The notes under the pieces were generated by a model, which saw only the letters and a program-made list of their open reading frames with translations, did no database searches and was not told the DNA's origin. A stretch of 64,000 nucleotides of DNA from Thermoplasma volcanium GSS1 (GTDB lineage: Archaea > Thermoplasmatota > Thermoplasmata > Thermoplasmatales > Thermoplasmataceae). Of the stretch, positions 35,665 to 42,756 are shown piece after piece (the first letter of the stretch is position 1; every line of letters begins with the position of its first letter). The stretch is taken from the NCBI RefSeq assembly GCF_000011185.1, contig NC_002689.2:806001-870000 (forward strand). Reading direction: 5' to 3'. The position numbers were made by a program, and so were the translations under genes.

Positions 35665-37689
35665 GTGAAAATCAGCGATCTTGGTTATGATGAGTCGTTC
35701 CTTGACCTCTTTGAAGGGAACGATTTTGAACTTTACGATCACCAGCGCATGGCAATTGAACAGTTCCGCAAAGGGAAAAATATAATGGTATCAGTTCCCA
35801 CTGCAGCTGGTAAAACACTAATAGCTTATTCTGCCATATATGAGACCTTTAAGAAAAAACTAAAATCGATCTACATTGTCCCATTAAGATCACTTGCAAT
35901 GGAAAAATATGAGGAACTCTCTAGGTTGAGAGAGCTAGGGATGAGGGTGAAATTATCAATAGGGAACTACGATGATACACCTGATTTTATTAAGAGATAT
36001 GATGTCGTAATCTTAACTTCAGAGAAAGCTGATTCATTAATGCACCATGATCCGTACATGATGGAAGAAGTTGGTTTGATGGTGATCGATGAAATACACA
36101 TGATAGGTGACGAGTACAGGGGCCCCACACTAGAAACAGTTATTACAACTGCCCGGTACGTTAATCCAGAGACGCGCATAATAGCTCTATCCGCCACTGT
36201 ATCTAACGCATCTGAGATAGCGGAGTGGCTTAATGCAAGCCTCATAAAGAGTTCATTTCGCCCAGTGCCATTGAAAGTCGGTATATTATATAGGAATAGG
36301 CTTTTCCTTGATGGAGATGCAAGATCTGATGTAGATATAAATTTACTTGTGAAAGAAACTGTAGACGACGGCGGGCAGGTTCTTATCTTCGTTAGCTCAA
36401 GAAAAAGGGCGGAAGATATGGCCAAGAATTTGTCCCAGTTGTTTGATCCTATAAATGATCTAAAGGTAAGTAGTGAAGATGCAAACGTATACGATGATCT
36501 CTTGAACGAAATGTTGCCACATGGCGTTTCATTCCATCATGCTGGCCTGAGCAATGAACAGCGCTCTTTCATAGAAAAGGCGTTCCGACATCGAAAGCTA
36601 AAGGTAATAGTTGCAACCCCGACTTTGGCTGCTGGAGTTAACCTGCCTGCTAGGCTTGTAATAGTAAAGGATGTAACAAGGTACGGGGATCTAGGCATTA
36701 CATACTTATCTAATATGGAAGTAAAGCAGATGATAGGCCGTGCTGGCAGGCCTGGATATGACCAATACGGAATCGGAATAATATATGCAGCTTCAGCTAA
36801 CAGCTATCAGGTAGTTAAAGAGTATATATCAGAAGAACCCGAGCCCGTAGATTCCTACATTGGAAAGCCAGAAAAAGTGAGGTTCAATACTTTAGCAGCA
36901 ATAGCAATGGGCCTAGCGACTTCTCAAGTCGAAATGGAAGAGTTTTACCGATCAACATTCTATTATGCACAAAATGGTGAAGATGAAATACCCAATAGAA
37001 TAAATGAGTCAATTAAATTTCTCAAGGAAAACGGTTTTATAAAGGAAAAGGACAGCCTACGAGCAACAGAATTCGGTAAAATGATTAGCAATCTATATAT
37101 TGATCCGGAAAGCGCGATAATACTCAAAAAGTACTTTGACGATAACGATGACATAGATACAGCTCTTTATTACATCTCGCTTTGCAGGGAAATTGCTCCA
37201 ATCAATATGCAAGACGACTATGCAGCTATGGAGTTCCTTGAAAGTATTGGCCACATTGATGGAGACATCGAAGCGGCCAAGACAGCGCTAGTATTGAGGG
37301 AATGGATTAGCGAAGCTTCAACAAGACGCATATTTGAAATGTATGGCGTAGCGCCTGGTGATCTACAAGCAAGAGTCAACAACGCAGACTGGATATCTTA
37401 TTCGCTGGCTCATTTAGCTTCAATTTTCAAGCCGGAGCGGAGAAGAAAGTTGGAAATACTTAATATGAGAATAAAAGAGGGAATTAGAGAAGAGTTGATG
37501 GATCTTGTCCTGATACCGGCTATAGGTAGGGTAAGAGCACGCAGGCTATATGAAGCGGGCATACATAACGTGCAGGAATTGGCTTTTTCCGATCCATCTA
37601 GAATAAAGATGCTGTACGGTTTTTCAGATACTCTCGCAAATGCAGTCGTAAAAAGGGCGAAGGCTATTGTCTCTGAAAGGATTCGTTAA
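35665..37689 (+). CDS. hel308: Superfamily 2 DNA helicase Hel308
   Basis: 674 residues. Motif I is TAAGKT (K50), motif II DEIH (142-145), motif III SATVSN, and motif VI QMIGRAGRPGYD. A winged helix and ratchet domain follow, and the C-terminal helix-hairpin-helix (LIPAIGRVRARRLYEAGIHNVQELA) is characteristic of Hel308/Hjm. It unwinds lagging strands at stalled replication forks and works with recombination proteins. The start is a GTG with a well-spaced TATA element. The stop overlaps the next gene if that gene uses its TTG. The length is in the normal range for Hel308, slightly short at the C-terminus. Confidence 0.95.
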   Translation: MKISDLGYDESFLDLFEGNDFELYDHQRMAIEQFRKGKNIMVSVPTAAGKTLIAYSAIYETFKKKLKSIYIVPLRSLAMEKYEELSRLRELGMRVKLSIGNYDDTPDFIKRYDVVILTSEKADSLMHHDPYMMEEVGLMVIDEIHMIGDEYRGPTLETVITTARYVNPETRIIALSATVSNASEIAEWLNASLIKSSFRPVPLKVGILYRNRLFLDGDARSDVDINLLVKETVDDGGQVLIFVSSRKRAEDMAKNLSQLFDPINDLKVSSEDANVYDDLLNEMLPHGVSFHHAGLSNEQRSFIEKAFRHRKLKVIVATPTLAAGVNLPARLVIVKDVTRYGDLGITYLSNMEVKQMIGRAGRPGYDQYGIGIIYAASANSYQVVKEYISEEPEPVDSYIGKPEKVRFNTLAAIAMGLATSQVEMEEFYRSTFYYAQNGEDEIPNRINESIKFLKENGFIKEKDSLRATEFGKMISNLYIDPESAIILKKYFDDNDDIDTALYYISLCREIAPINMQDDYAAMEFLESIGHIDGDIEAAKTALVLREWISEASTRRIFEMYGVAPGDLQARVNNADWISYSLAHLASIFKPERRRKLEILNMRIKEGIREELMDLVLIPAIGRVRARRLYEAGIHNVQELAFSDPSRIKMLYGFSDTLANAVVKRAKAIVSERIR

Positions 37690-38590
37690 GGTTGAAAGGA
37701 GGATGGCCGATCGTACCATAAAGATGCTGCAGTCAAGAGGGTACTTTGATTCTGATTATGAAATAAGGCACGAAGGAGATTACGTCCTAATCCCTGTTAA
37801 GGATGGCTTCACGGGACCAGTTGTCGTGAAAGATGCGGAAAAAAAACCAAAAGTAATTCCTGCTTCAGGATCATTCGATATAATAGGCACTATAGCTATA
37901 ACAAAAAAAGACGATGTTGAATTTGCAAAAGAAATTTTAAAAACGCACAAGAATATAAAAAGTGTTTACCTTGACAAGGGCGTAAAGGGGAAAGAAAGAA
38001 TACGTGATCTTGTTCTTCTCGCCGGGATCGATAGCACTGTCGCATTGTATAGGGAAAATGGATGTATCTTCAAGATAGATGTATCAAAATCCTATTTTTC
38101 TCCCCGCCTCGCAACGGAGAGGCGCAGGCTTGTAGATTCAATATTAGATGGGGAATTTATTGTTGATATGTTTGCCGGCTCCGGCCCAATAAGCATAGAG
38201 GTAGCTAAAAAAAGAAGAGTAAAGATAATAAGCATAGACATAAACTGTGCTGCAATTGAAAGCCTGCAGGAAAGCATGAGATTGAATTCACTGCTTGGGA
38301 CAATTACACCTATATGCGGTGATGCTAGGCAATTAATTAAGGATATTCACGATGCAGACCGCATAATAATGAACCACCCTACTGATGCATTTTCGTTTTT
38401 GCCATGTGCTCTAGAAGCTTTAAAATACGGTGGCCACATAAATTATTACGAGATCTTGAATAAAGATGATGTCACAAAAAGACTTGCAGACTTTAATTTT
38501 ATGAGGCTGAAGGTATTTTCTTACCATAGAGTGCATTCCTATTCTAAACTATCTGATCTGATTTCATTTGATCTAATAAGGGAAGGCTAA
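37667..38590 (+). CDS. Trm5-like tRNA methyltransferase
   Basis: 307 residues from a TTG at 37667; ATG 37703 is the alternative. I prefer the TTG because FVKVERRMADRTIKMLQSRGYFD lines up with the N-terminal VKVPxxxAExxxxxL segment of Trm5. Motifs: YFSPRLATERRRL, the SAM-binding VDMFAGSGPISIEVAKK, ISIDINCAAIES, and DRIIMNHPTDAFSFL (the NPP-like catalytic site, here NHP). Trm5 forms m1G37 in tRNA; relatives make wyosine intermediates (TYW2/Taw22), and I cannot separate these by eye. It overlaps the end of hel308 by 23 bases, so the two are coupled. Confidence 0.85.
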   Translation: MSLKGFVKVERRMADRTIKMLQSRGYFDSDYEIRHEGDYVLIPVKDGFTGPVVVKDAEKKPKVIPASGSFDIIGTIAITKKDDVEFAKEILKTHKNIKSVYLDKGVKGKERIRDLVLLAGIDSTVALYRENGCIFKIDVSKSYFSPRLATERRRLVDSILDGEFIVDMFAGSGPISIEVAKKRRVKIISIDINCAAIESLQESMRLNSLLGTITPICGDARQLIKDIHDADRIIMNHPTDAFSFLPCALEALKYGGHINYYEILNKDDVTKRLADFNFMRLKVFSYHRVHSYSKLSDLISFDLIREG

Positions 38591-38614
38591 GAAACACGAA
38601 AATTTGCAAGAAAT

Positions 38615-38649
38615 CTATTTATATTAGATATCACTCAACTAACCGGAGG
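38615..38649 (+). promoter_or_regulatory. TATA element and Shine-Dalgarno of a small acidic gene
   Basis: A TATA element ctatttatatta at 38615-38626 precedes a strong ribosome binding site GGAGGT at 38645-38650, eight bases before a TTG at 38658. A perfect Shine-Dalgarno is unusual in this mostly leaderless setting and supports translation of the short reading frame that follows. Confidence 0.6.
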
Positions 38650-38657
38650 TGGCGTGT

Positions 38658-38729
38658 TTGGTCTTCAAGAAGATGGATTATGATGATGACTTCGACGATG
38701 AAGACGAAGATGACGACGATGATTTTTAA
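38658..38729 (+). CDS. Very small polyacidic protein (23 residues), unknown
   Basis: The frame begins MVFKKMDYDDDF and continues with Asp and Glu almost without interruption to a final Phe; 15 of the last 18 residues are acidic. A TTG at 38658 is eight bases after a GGAGGT ribosome binding site; an in-frame ATG at 38673 would give 18 residues. It has its own TATA element, and the next gene has a separate one, so it is a free-standing unit. I do not recognise a family. Acidic mini-proteins can act as nucleic acid mimics, metal binders or chaperone-like partners; no such role is shown. It is shorter than usual annotation limits. Confidence 0.55.
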   Translation: MVFKKMDYDDDFDDEDEDDDDDF

Positions 38730-38733
38730 AAAT

Positions 38734-38742
38734 CTATATATG
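38734..38742 (+). promoter_or_regulatory. TATA element of the CoA-disulfide reductase-like gene
   Basis: The ctatatatg run is about 25 bases before the ATG at 38763, the usual archaeal spacing for a leaderless start. It lies immediately after the stop of the small acidic frame, giving that frame and the flavoprotein separate promoters. Confidence 0.55.
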
Positions 38743-38762: not shown

Positions 38763-40070
38763 ATGAAGATCATTGTAATAGGAGGGGGGGCGGCTGGCAT
38801 GTCGGCTGCCTCCAAAGCTAAGCGTGTAAATCCTGATTCAGAAGTAATTGTTGTTGAATCCGGTTCTTATGTATCGTACGCTGAGTGTGGGATACCGTAC
38901 TATCTTCAAGGTGTCGTGGGCCATATTGAGGATCTTCTGCACTATCCATTGTCAGAGTTTACAGAGAAAAGAGGTATAAAAGTTCTCCTTCACACTACTG
39001 TTACGAGAATAGATACATTGCATTCATCTGTATTACTCAATAACGGCGACGTACTAAAGTACGATCGGCTTATTATCGCTACAGGGTCTCGCCCAAAGCC
39101 CATTGACGTTATATCCGATAGAACAATCTCAATAAGAAGCTTAGAAAGTGCGATGAGAGCCCGCAACCTGATTGAAAAGTCCAAGGACGTGACGATAGTT
39201 GGGGCGGGTGTACTGGGGGTAGAGTTGGCATCGGTTCTCGCGGAGTCTGGTAAAAACGTTAAAGTCATATCAAAATACGATAGGGTTCTGCCGCAGCTCG
39301 ATGAAGACATAGGCAAAATTTTCCATGAGTATTTTTCAAGCAGAATAGATGTACAAAAACAATCCAGCTTAAAGTCCGCAGAGGAGGATAGGGGAAGAGT
39401 AAAGATAACAACTAGCGTTGATGATCACGAGTGCGATGCAGTCATTTACGCTACAGGCATAATACCTAATTCGGAGATAGCCGTGGAAGCTGGCATTAAA
39501 ACAGGAGATAGAAATGCCATTCTTACAAACGGGCACATGGAAACTTCTGAACCTGGAGTTTATGCTGCAGGAGATGTAGCAACAGTAAGAAATATAGTCA
39601 CAGGTCTTGACGAGATGATGCCGCTTGCACAGATAGCAAATAAAGCGGGGCGGGTGGCAGGATCAAATGCATCCAATTCGGAAATGGTTTTCCCTGGAGC
39701 GCTGGGAACCACGCTTGTAAAGGTCTTCGATTATGAAGTTGGCTTTACAGGGATCAATGAAAGTAGGGCTAAAGCTCTCGGAATTCCATACGAAAAGACT
39801 TTAATAAAAGCTAAGAGCAGGGCAAATTATTATCCTGGAAAGCAGGATATATACGTGAAGATAATTTACGGAAAAAACGATAAGAGGCTACTCGGTGCAC
39901 AGGTAATTGGTACAGATGGTGCAGCATGGCGTCTTAACACCATAGCCACTGCAATATTTGGCGGCTTTAAAGTGTCGGACTTATTCTATGATGATCTTGG
40001 ATACACGCCACCTTTCGGCCCTGTCTGGGACTCTATCGTTATTGCTGGAAGCGTATCTATGAGAGAGTGA
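38763..40070 (+). CDS. CoA-disulfide reductase / NADH oxidase-type flavoprotein
   Basis: 435 residues of the pyridine nucleotide-disulfide oxidoreductase superfamily with a single redox Cys. FAD-binding GGGAAGMSAA lies at the N-terminus, the active Cys is C42 in SYAECGIPYY, the NAD(P)H-binding motif is VGAGVLGVELASVLAE, and the FAD-ribityl site is TSEPGVYAAGDVATV. A C-terminal dimerisation domain is present. These enzymes reduce CoA disulfide or elemental sulfur species, or oxidise NADH; the precise role needs assay. A TATA element at 38734-38742 is 25 bases upstream. The Lhr-type helicase starts one base after the stop, so the two are probably co-transcribed. Confidence 0.87.
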   Translation: MKIIVIGGGAAGMSAASKAKRVNPDSEVIVVESGSYVSYAECGIPYYLQGVVGHIEDLLHYPLSEFTEKRGIKVLLHTTVTRIDTLHSSVLLNNGDVLKYDRLIIATGSRPKPIDVISDRTISIRSLESAMRARNLIEKSKDVTIVGAGVLGVELASVLAESGKNVKVISKYDRVLPQLDEDIGKIFHEYFSSRIDVQKQSSLKSAEEDRGRVKITTSVDDHECDAVIYATGIIPNSEIAVEAGIKTGDRNAILTNGHMETSEPGVYAAGDVATVRNIVTGLDEMMPLAQIANKAGRVAGSNASNSEMVFPGALGTTLVKVFDYEVGFTGINESRAKALGIPYEKTLIKAKSRANYYPGKQDIYVKIIYGKNDKRLLGAQVIGTDGAAWRLNTIATAIFGGFKVSDLFYDDLGYTPPFGPVWDSIVIAGSVSMRE

Positions 40071-40071
40071 A

Positions 40072-42756
40072 ATGGAGAACGCCTTTGATCTATTGGATAA
40101 ACGCATAATCTCAGTTCTTCAGACCCACGGAATTACGGATCCAACAGATCCGCAGGAAAGGATAATACCAGAGATACTCGACGGAAAAAACGTACTTCTA
40201 CTTTCTCCCACTGGGAGCGGAAAGACAGAAGCCGCAGTTATGCCCATATTCGATATGATCCTCAAGAGGCATCCGGACAAGATCTTCGCAATTTACATAA
40301 CTCCGTTGCGTGCCCTCAATAGGGATATAGTCTATCGATTGGTCGAATATGGGAAGGATCTAGGCATAAAAGTCCAGGTTAGGCATAGTGACATGACGGA
40401 TTCAGACAGGAAAAGGATGACTGCTGATCCTCCGGACATAGTGGTCACGACGCCTGAATCTCTTCAGATACTATTGAACGGAAGGAACCTCTCAAAACTA
40501 ATCTCGAACGTAAAGATCGTAGTGGTCGACGAATTGCATGACGCAGCTGAAAATGAGAGGGGATCTCAGCTTTCTGTTGCTCTTGAGAGGCTTAGGGATC
40601 TTGCAGGCAATTTCCAGAGGATAGGGCTTTCGGCAACAGTGGGCAACCCGAAAGACCTGGCAAAGTTTCTTGTTCCAGAAGGCGAATGCGAGATAGTGGC
40701 TACTGGGCTCAGGAAAAACATGGATATCGAGGTTATGGTTCCGCAGGAAGCATCGGAAGGAGATGCTGAAATTATGGGGTGTGATAGACAGTATGCCGGT
40801 GCAGTACTCAAGGTATGGGAGCTGATAAATCGTCACGCCGGGTCGTTAGTATTTGTAAACAGGCGCTTCGTGGCCGAAGATCTTGCTTTCAGGCTAAGAC
40901 TCAAGTTCGGTGATATACCTGTACTTGTGCACCATGGTTCTCTTTCCAGGGAAACAAGGGAAAATGCAGAAAACTCTTTCAAGGAGGGAAAGGTTAGGGC
41001 CCTTATATGCACGTCAAGCCTCGAACTTGGGATTGATATTGGTACCGCAAGCGCTGTGATACAGTTCAACTCGCCCAGGCAGATCAACAAAATGATTCAG
41101 CGGATAGGCAGATCCGAACATTGGATAGGTCGCACCTCCAAAGGATACGTTGTTTGCACGGATGTTATAGAGATGGAGGAAGCTATAGCCATAGTTGACA
41201 GCATAAAGGAGGGAAAGATAGAGCCAGTGCAAATAATGAGGAATTCCTTATCTACACTGGCCAATCAGATCTTGTCTGAAGTAAACTCTAAAAAAAGAGT
41301 AAATGTTGATGCATTTTTTGCAACTGTAAAGAGGGCTTATGCCTTCGCAGATCTTACCTACGATGAATATATGGAAGTTATCCACTTTCTTGCCGATACC
41401 AAGAAAATATGGCTTGAAGATAAATTCATCGGAAAGAGGAGAAACACTTTAAGATACTACATAGAGAACATATCAATGATACCGAGCGAGAAAAACTATA
41501 AGGTAATCGATATCACAGGCAAGTTCATAGGCACACTGGACGAAAGGTACGTAGCCTCTGACATAGATGCCGGTAGCTACTTTGTCATGCGGGGCAACAC
41601 ATGGCGGGTAATCCGCCTGGAAAAGGACAGAATACTTGTTGAATCGTTCTTTACGCCGGCTGTTGCACCCAGGTGGACAGGTGAGGATATACCTGTTCTG
41701 TACGATGTAGTCGATAAGGTATCTAAGAACAGGCTGGCAAAAAGAATACCAGAGTGTACAGATGAATTTTCAGCAGAAAAACTAAGGCAGTGGTACTGCA
41801 ACGATGTTGCAACGTCCGATGAAGTCATCGTGGAGAGCTACAATGATGAGATAGTAATACAGATCTTACTTGGAACAAAGGGGAACTTCGCCGTAGCTGA
41901 AGTACTCTCCAATTTGCTCTCATCAATAACTGGAGAAAGTGTGGAATCGGATTACTCTCCTTACCATATATACCTTAGGACGTCCAGAAAGATATATGCA
42001 GATGACGCCAAAAAGCTGATACTAGATGTATTTGGAAGCGATTTTGAACAGTACCTTGCCGCATCCGCTCCGAGGTCCAGATTTTTTAAATCTGTATTTT
42101 TATACGAAGCCAGAAAGTTTGGCGTAATAAGTGCTGAAGCTGATCTGGACAGGATAAGGATAGACAAAATAATGGATGCTTATATGGACACCGTCCTTTA
42201 TAGGGATTCAGTAAGAAAACTCATAAACGACTATATGGACGTTGATGCTCTTCGATCATTCAAGGCGAAGCTGCCAACAATCAATTTTATCCTTCGAGAT
42301 TCCATATCGAAGTCGTCAGACATATTTATATCGCATTATTCCGAAAGGATAACACCGCTAAGGCCGACAAAAGCCATACTTGAGTCTGTGAAGAATAGGA
42401 TAATGAATGAACGGGTCTCCCTTTATTGCCTTAGCTGCGGCAGTGTAAGGTCATACAGAGTCCGTGACTTAAAGGTGCCGAAATGTGAAGCATGCGGATC
42501 CAGGTTAGTTGCTGCACTATCAGACTATGAAAGAGACAGGATCAAAGATCCGGAATACAGAAAACGGATAGTTAAGAATGCTCACCTTGTAAAGGAAAAA
42601 GGGATAGATGCAGTCATGGTTCTTACTGCCCGTGGAATAGGCCCGGAGACTGCATCTAGGATATTGGAGGTAACATACGCAAGCGAAGAAGATCTGATAA
42701 GGGCCATACTAAATGCAGAGATGGACTATGCTAGAAATAGGAGGTTTTGGGATTAA
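40072..42756 (+). CDS. lhr: Lhr-type superfamily 2 helicase
   Basis: 894 residues, the size of the Lhr core. Motif I is PTGSGKT (K51), motif II DELH (153-156), motif III SATVGN, and motif VI QRIGRSEH, where the usual GRAGR is changed to GRSEH. The winged helix and beta-sheet region follow. A four-Cys zinc-binding module is seen near the C-terminus (C786, C789, C805, C808), followed by a helix-hairpin-helix-like LTARGIGPETASRIL. Archaeal Lhr enzymes unwind DNA or RNA-DNA hybrids in repair. The C-terminal zinc/HhH addition makes this one of the less typical Lhr subgroups. It is one base from the flavoprotein gene. Confidence 0.88.
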   Translation: MENAFDLLDKRIISVLQTHGITDPTDPQERIIPEILDGKNVLLLSPTGSGKTEAAVMPIFDMILKRHPDKIFAIYITPLRALNRDIVYRLVEYGKDLGIKVQVRHSDMTDSDRKRMTADPPDIVVTTPESLQILLNGRNLSKLISNVKIVVVDELHDAAENERGSQLSVALERLRDLAGNFQRIGLSATVGNPKDLAKFLVPEGECEIVATGLRKNMDIEVMVPQEASEGDAEIMGCDRQYAGAVLKVWELINRHAGSLVFVNRRFVAEDLAFRLRLKFGDIPVLVHHGSLSRETRENAENSFKEGKVRALICTSSLELGIDIGTASAVIQFNSPRQINKMIQRIGRSEHWIGRTSKGYVVCTDVIEMEEAIAIVDSIKEGKIEPVQIMRNSLSTLANQILSEVNSKKRVNVDAFFATVKRAYAFADLTYDEYMEVIHFLADTKKIWLEDKFIGKRRNTLRYYIENISMIPSEKNYKVIDITGKFIGTLDERYVASDIDAGSYFVMRGNTWRVIRLEKDRILVESFFTPAVAPRWTGEDIPVLYDVVDKVSKNRLAKRIPECTDEFSAEKLRQWYCNDVATSDEVIVESYNDEIVIQILLGTKGNFAVAEVLSNLLSSITGESVESDYSPYHIYLRTSRKIYADDAKKLILDVFGSDFEQYLAASAPRSRFFKSVFLYEARKFGVISAEADLDRIRIDKIMDAYMDTVLYRDSVRKLINDYMDVDALRSFKAKLPTINFILRDSISKSSDIFISHYSERITPLRPTKAILESVKNRIMNERVSLYCLSCGSVRSYRVRDLKVPKCEACGSRLVAALSDYERDRIKDPEYRKRIVKNAHLVKEKGIDAVMVLTARGIGPETASRILEVTYASEEDLIRAILNAEMDYARNRRFWD

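Follow-up and report, generated by a model that had tools for sequence, protein, structure and literature searches.

The microprotein gene and its surroundings

The window analysed here is a 64 kb stretch (bases 806001–870000) of the single-contig Thermoplasma volcanium genome, and within it a very short, poly-aspartate ORF lies between two longer genes on the forward strand. The upstream gene (37667–38590) specifies a TRM5/TYW2-type tRNA methyltransferase (PF02475, 8.2e-40; PF18093, 2e-10), and the downstream gene (38763–40070) a CoA-disulfide-reductase-like flavoprotein (PF07992, 3.4e-57), which is followed on the same strand by an Lhr-type helicase gene (40072–42756; PF19306, 1.2e-18; PF08494, 2.7e-16). 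The first two proteins score below the corresponding family cut-offs (202 bits against 600 for NCBIfam Trm5b, a wide margin; 410.5 bits against 578.8 for TIGR03385); each could be a divergent representative of its family or have a different function.

The short ORF (38658–38729, forward strand) begins with a TTG codon (38658–38660) and runs for 23 codons to a TAA stop (38727–38729), specifying the peptide MVFKKMDYDDDFDDEDEDDDDDF, in which 16 of the 23 residues are Asp or Glu. A TATA-like promoter element, TATTTATATT (38616–38625), begins 42 nt upstream of the start codon, and a Shine-Dalgarno sequence, GGAGGTG (38645–38651), precedes it with a gap of 7 nt between GGAGGT and TTG. These elements, read directly, agree with an earlier sequence-only reading that had proposed a free-standing gene for a 23-residue polyacidic protein with its own promoter and ribosome binding site. 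A GTG at 38649 is an alternative in-frame start three codons earlier, but it lies inside the Shine-Dalgarno sequence, and the ATG of related genes aligns with TTG 38658, not with GTG 38649. Transcription would be expected to start at about 38644–38648, giving a leader of some 10–14 nt from the Shine-Dalgarno sequence; because of the usual archaeal TATA-to-start spacing, the predicted transcript begins right at this element. The flavoprotein gene has a TATA-like tract of its own (38734–38741), about 25 nt before its ATG, a geometry typical of leaderless transcripts.

Strong ribosome binding sites are as rare locally as had been stated. A 6-mer Shine-Dalgarno (GGAGGT or GAGGTG) at a plausible distance is present at one of the 39 non-overlapping long ORFs of the window, and a 5-mer or better at four of the 39. 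No other short ORF in the window has at least 14 acidic residues in 17, and none with this property occurred in 100 first-order Markov windows. The poly-aspartate ORF is confirmed as a real gene, with a stronger case than the earlier reading had made, and it is predicted to be transcribed and translated. RNA-seq of T. acidophilum has been published (PMC6877293).

Distribution among related genomes

When 101 genomes of the order were searched at the DNA level, each of the four other members of the genus had the block (E-values 1e-27 to 1e-33) and, in it, the ORF. The frame is thus conserved in close relatives, a condition on which the earlier reading had made its claim depend. Weaker matches were found outside the genus, and the loci inspected carry the same ORF. 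A pattern combining a Shine-Dalgarno sequence with an acidic run matched 61 of the 101 genomes, nearly always at one site each, while the reversed control pattern gave no match in the same set. With further members added by a profile search and other patterns, the gene was found in 55 of the 61 sampled genomes of its own family (f1) and in all 15 genomes of a sister family (f3), nearly always as a single copy. Named records that carry it include 'Thermoplasmatales archaeon I-plasma', which belongs to f3, and 'Uncultured archaeon clone ASS_A1'. Its start region, Shine-Dalgarno sequence and stop codon are kept along with it, whether or not the position is orthologous.

Six f1 genomes gave no match (G070, G074, G082, G093, G097 and G098); their completeness is 76–93%. 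One of them, G093 (L258, 76% complete), has a gap of 26 nt between purL and Lhr with no microprotein in it, and represents a natural empty site; in G077 and G087 the microprotein sits between these two genes. The patterns and the profile found no member in families f4, f5 and f6 of the order, and the sole match in the single f2 genome lay within a long acidic protein. A strict KRR-x-x-DD pattern, which covers only members with a KRR motif, was run against about 85,000 species and IMG/VR, and its matches to short ORFs were confined to Thermoplasmata.

Selection on the peptide and conservation of the upstream region

Among the five members of the genus, nine of the ten variable nucleotides in the microprotein gene are synonymous, all of them at third positions; the tenth gives a Lys/Arg exchange, and one codon has been inserted or lost. 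The synonymous expectation is 12–22%, giving P = 3e-8 to 9e-6 for transition weights of 1–4. Over 54 pairs of sequences within groups (divided by genus in f1, undivided in f3), synonymous codon differences numbered 210 and the others 161. The pattern within the genus indicates that purifying selection is acting on the peptide and not on the DNA alone.

The upstream elements are also conserved. In the five genus members the TATA element is invariant, as ATATTTATA/CTATTTATA, and so is the Shine-Dalgarno block, CCGGAGGTGG. More widely, 50 of 60 members have a TATA-like 8-mer 38–47 nt upstream of the start codon, where shuffled sequences gave a mean of 13.9 (maximum 22). Since selection on the peptide is combined with this recurring upstream motif, promoter, Shine-Dalgarno sequence and peptide form a unit.

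Instead of coding for protein, the conserved block might be a promoter region or a small RNA, or low-complexity sequence that arose by accident. In favour of this are the strong conservation from promoter to Shine-Dalgarno sequence and the ability of slippage to create low-complexity GAY repeats. Against it, GAT and GAC are exchanged at nearly every variable codon while the residue is kept, the peptide is conserved across the order along with its start, Shine-Dalgarno sequence and stop, and the Markov windows produced no such ORF by chance. An Rfam search around the microprotein gave no match and no regulatory element, and on this result, together with the synonymous substitutions, an RNA element was rejected. 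A non-coding origin for the block is therefore barely credible.

Gene order

Within the genus, the microprotein gene is followed by the flavoprotein and Lhr genes. The earlier reading had suggested looking for the frame between trm5-like and flavoprotein genes of other Thermoplasmatales; such a search would succeed inside the genus alone, as other genera keep the microprotein beside different genes. The TRM5/TYW2-type gene adjoins it in the genus only, and upstream genes vary freely between genera. The flavoprotein gene is adjacent in genera g1, g2, g3 and g11 (without Lhr in the last three) and is next but one in g17. In most other genera of the family Lhr comes directly after the microprotein, and is often followed by genes whose products, judged from sequence alone, are a Toprim-like and an RNase Z-like protein. 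Neither flavoprotein nor Lhr adjoins the microprotein in g6, where the neighbours are unrelated or opposite-strand genes, or in f3, where genes for GNAT-like and nucleotidyltransferase-like proteins (again judged from sequence alone) come after it. No downstream gene is shared in g6 and f3. An arrangement of microprotein – flavoprotein – Lhr – Toprim protein – RNase Z-like protein, seen in g17 and g1, is probably ancestral, and losses on either side would have followed. Functional coupling to Lhr or to the flavoprotein was set aside, and an obligate link to the flanking genes is weakened, since each adjoins the microprotein in part of the family and neither does in g6 and f3.

The changing neighbourhood bears on whether the ORF could be a cis-acting leader peptide, in which the Asp run would destabilise ribosomes, sense Mg2+ or the state of the ribosome, and so control a downstream gene. 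Runs of acidic residues do destabilise translating ribosomes (PMC9718836), and in many genomes a gene on the same strand lies 5–190 nt downstream. Like acidic leader peptides of the MgtL type, the microprotein is a short acidic ORF upstream of another gene. It differs from them in having no fixed downstream gene (flavoprotein, Lhr or GNAT, and unrelated or opposite-strand genes in g6), in being conserved to its last residue, with protein-level selection extending to the stop codon, and in having its own promoter beside a neighbour that, in the window, has a leaderless-type promoter; in addition, the acidic run comes late in the ORF. The change of downstream gene between genera speaks against an MgtL-like leader. 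The microprotein survives every rearrangement while its neighbours differ, and its product therefore would act in trans; cis control by a leader peptide is very improbable.

Properties of the peptide

The 62 members compared are 19–26 aa long, with a net charge of −7 to −16, and thus have the small size and strong acidity expected of DNA or nucleic-acid mimics. They consist of two conserved modules, a short N-terminal anchor and an Asp tract of about 10–15 residues. The anchor is hydrophobic and then usually basic, following M-[VLS]-x-[FI]-x-[KR]-R-R-[DP]-[YF] in most genera (for example, SFIKRRDY, SIKRRPDD and VNFVKRRDY), with deviating versions in other genera (VKFVKYY, VSFIMHY, FVPFWYG and VDYVYGK). 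The tract is often interrupted by a single aromatic residue and often ends in Phe, which is the last residue in 35 of the 62 members but not in the other 27. The peptide would be expected to be intrinsically disordered.

Members start with ATG, TTG or GTG, and apparently with ACG in a few genomes. Four loci (L254, L253, L093 and L055, in genomes G079, G091, G080 and G038) have ACG at the aligned start position together with a good Shine-Dalgarno sequence, and in G079 and G091 there is no in-frame ATG, GTG or TTG ahead of the acidic run. Initiation at ACG and sequence errors in metagenome-assembled genomes are both possible.

Asp outnumbers Glu by 678 to 109 over the 62 members. Judging from pKa values, this preference fits an acidic cytoplasm, as Asp would keep its charge better at low internal pH. 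Composition and high negative charge, along with the lack of a fixed genomic partner, could also be expected of a free Asp-rich peptide that buffers metals or polycations, by chelating Mg2+, Mn2+, Ca2+ or Fe or by binding polyamines. A pure buffer would need neither a conserved hydrophobic-basic N-terminus nor a near-fixed length, genes for metal transport, storage or regulation do not turn up repeatedly beside the microprotein, and the Rfam search had revealed no regulatory element around it. A buffering role is accordingly rated as rather unlikely.

Comparison with known acidic proteins

Neither Pfam, NCBIfam nor PDB sequences gave a match to the microprotein, including to the prothymosin/DSS1 family, although 23 residues of low complexity are almost impossible to search with and such comparisons have low power. 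Full-text searches of open-access papers returned no description of it. Conserved microproteins and polyacidic disordered proteins are already known, but the size and purity of this one are unusual.

Prothymosin-alpha and DSS1/SEM1 are disordered, polyacidic eukaryotic proteins that bind basic or nucleic-acid-binding partners. The microprotein resembles them in its extreme acidic content and expected disorder and, in the case of DSS1, in the aromatic residues within acidic tracts; they are eukaryotic proteins of about 70–110 aa and mostly Glu-rich or mixed in composition, whereas the microprotein is archaeal, 19–26 aa in length and almost pure Asp. With the DNA mimics Ocr, Ugi and the anti-CRISPR mimics it shares small size, strong acidity and a proposed ability to occupy nucleic-acid-binding surfaces. 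Those mimics are folded, often phage-encoded inhibitors, while the microprotein is a conserved cellular gene product that is too short for such a fold. The C-terminal tips of bacterial SSB and phage T7 gp2.5 likewise carry an acidic run with a final Phe. They are tails of single-stranded-DNA-binding proteins and require the terminal aromatic residue, whereas the microprotein is a stand-alone ORF in which it is frequently absent. An SSB-type tip was rejected, as Phe is terminal in little over half of the members and there is no SSB carrier.

Possible function

The earlier reading had suggested a nucleic-acid mimic, a metal buffer or a partner of a basic protein, and each of these roles is still a candidate. 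The reading we favour, tentatively, is that the gene is translated into a disordered polyanion whose N-terminus, hydrophobic and then basic, serves as an anchor, and that this product acts in trans on a putative basic or nucleic-acid-binding partner. The anchor would attach the peptide to one specific partner, whose basic nucleic-acid-binding surface the Asp tract would cover or compete for. Such a peptide might serve as a charge chaperone, masking charge, or as a mini nucleic-acid mimic. Several observations weigh against this: the anchor varies more than one would expect if it had one fixed docking site, the obvious basic partner HTa also occurs in families that gave no microprotein match, there are apparent absences, such as G093, and the peptide matches no solved structure or protein family, as noted above.

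A somewhat unlikely alternative is a constitutive micro-subunit that adds an acidic patch to one large complex (RNA polymerase, ribosome, proteasome, or the replication or chromatin machinery) and is not a free competitor or mimic. The single copy, near-universal presence in two families, strong Shine-Dalgarno sequence, narrow length range and conserved anchor-like N-terminus would all suit such a subunit. Sister families equipped with these core machines gave no match for the peptide, its N-terminus is variable, and no such complex is known from the sources searched.

For a trans-acting polyanion, a candidate partner is HTa, the basic chromatin protein (histone analogue) of Thermoplasmatales. 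HTa (PF00216) occurs in 99 of the order's 101 genomes and extends to every family that gave no microprotein match, f4, f5 and f6 among them. Obligate coupling to HTa by co-occurrence is not supported, since HTa is present in families without a microprotein match, and the peptide may still bind HTa, which is compatible with this result. Near-universal presence was likewise found for a second Lhr-domain gene.

A broader and doubtful proposal is that the microprotein is the founding member of an order-level core-gene family, whose product, a poly-Asp peptide of about 20 residues, would do general duty in Thermoplasmatales chromatin, transcription or translation at the low pH of the cytoplasm, either as a charge chaperone or as a competitor of nucleic acids. 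If that were true, few nucleic-acid mimics that act in trans and are encoded by a cellular genome would be shorter. As it stands, a near-universal, single-copy gene of two archaeal families consists of only about 20 codons and has no match in the protein-family libraries searched; if translated, it would be a natural example of function reduced to its minimum, with charge and a short anchor as the sole determinants. In T. acidophilum it would allow one to ask what purpose free poly-Asp serves in a cell, how basic DNA and RNA binding is adjusted when the cytoplasm has a low pH, and to what extent genome annotation overlooks core microproteins.

Look-alike sequences

When the combined Shine-Dalgarno and acidic pattern was applied to 390 genomes of the phylum, the loci fetched were pieces of longer acidic proteins, with one exception. 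This was at a contig end in a genome of another family (L297 of G494), where the sequence MIKKFGPEEEEDEEDYEDEEDDWRD is found behind GAGGTG. A comparable short ORF was not found in 45 genomes of that family, and because the pattern does not recur there, the look-alike is taken to be convergent or unrelated.

Two matches in f1 genomes were rejected as microproteins. The one in G097 belongs to the N-terminal end of an Hsp20-like protein (L352, about 1960–2546), which begins MVYRRRRDDEDDEDDFFGDMFDSFG and has a basic-then-acidic layout like that of the microprotein, a resemblance that is probably coincidental. In G074 the match lies in a 349-aa protein (L238/L040), at its tail, a long poly-Asp C-terminus, DDDDFDDDDDFDDDDDDDDDEDDDVELDEFE, that is similar in composition to the microprotein.
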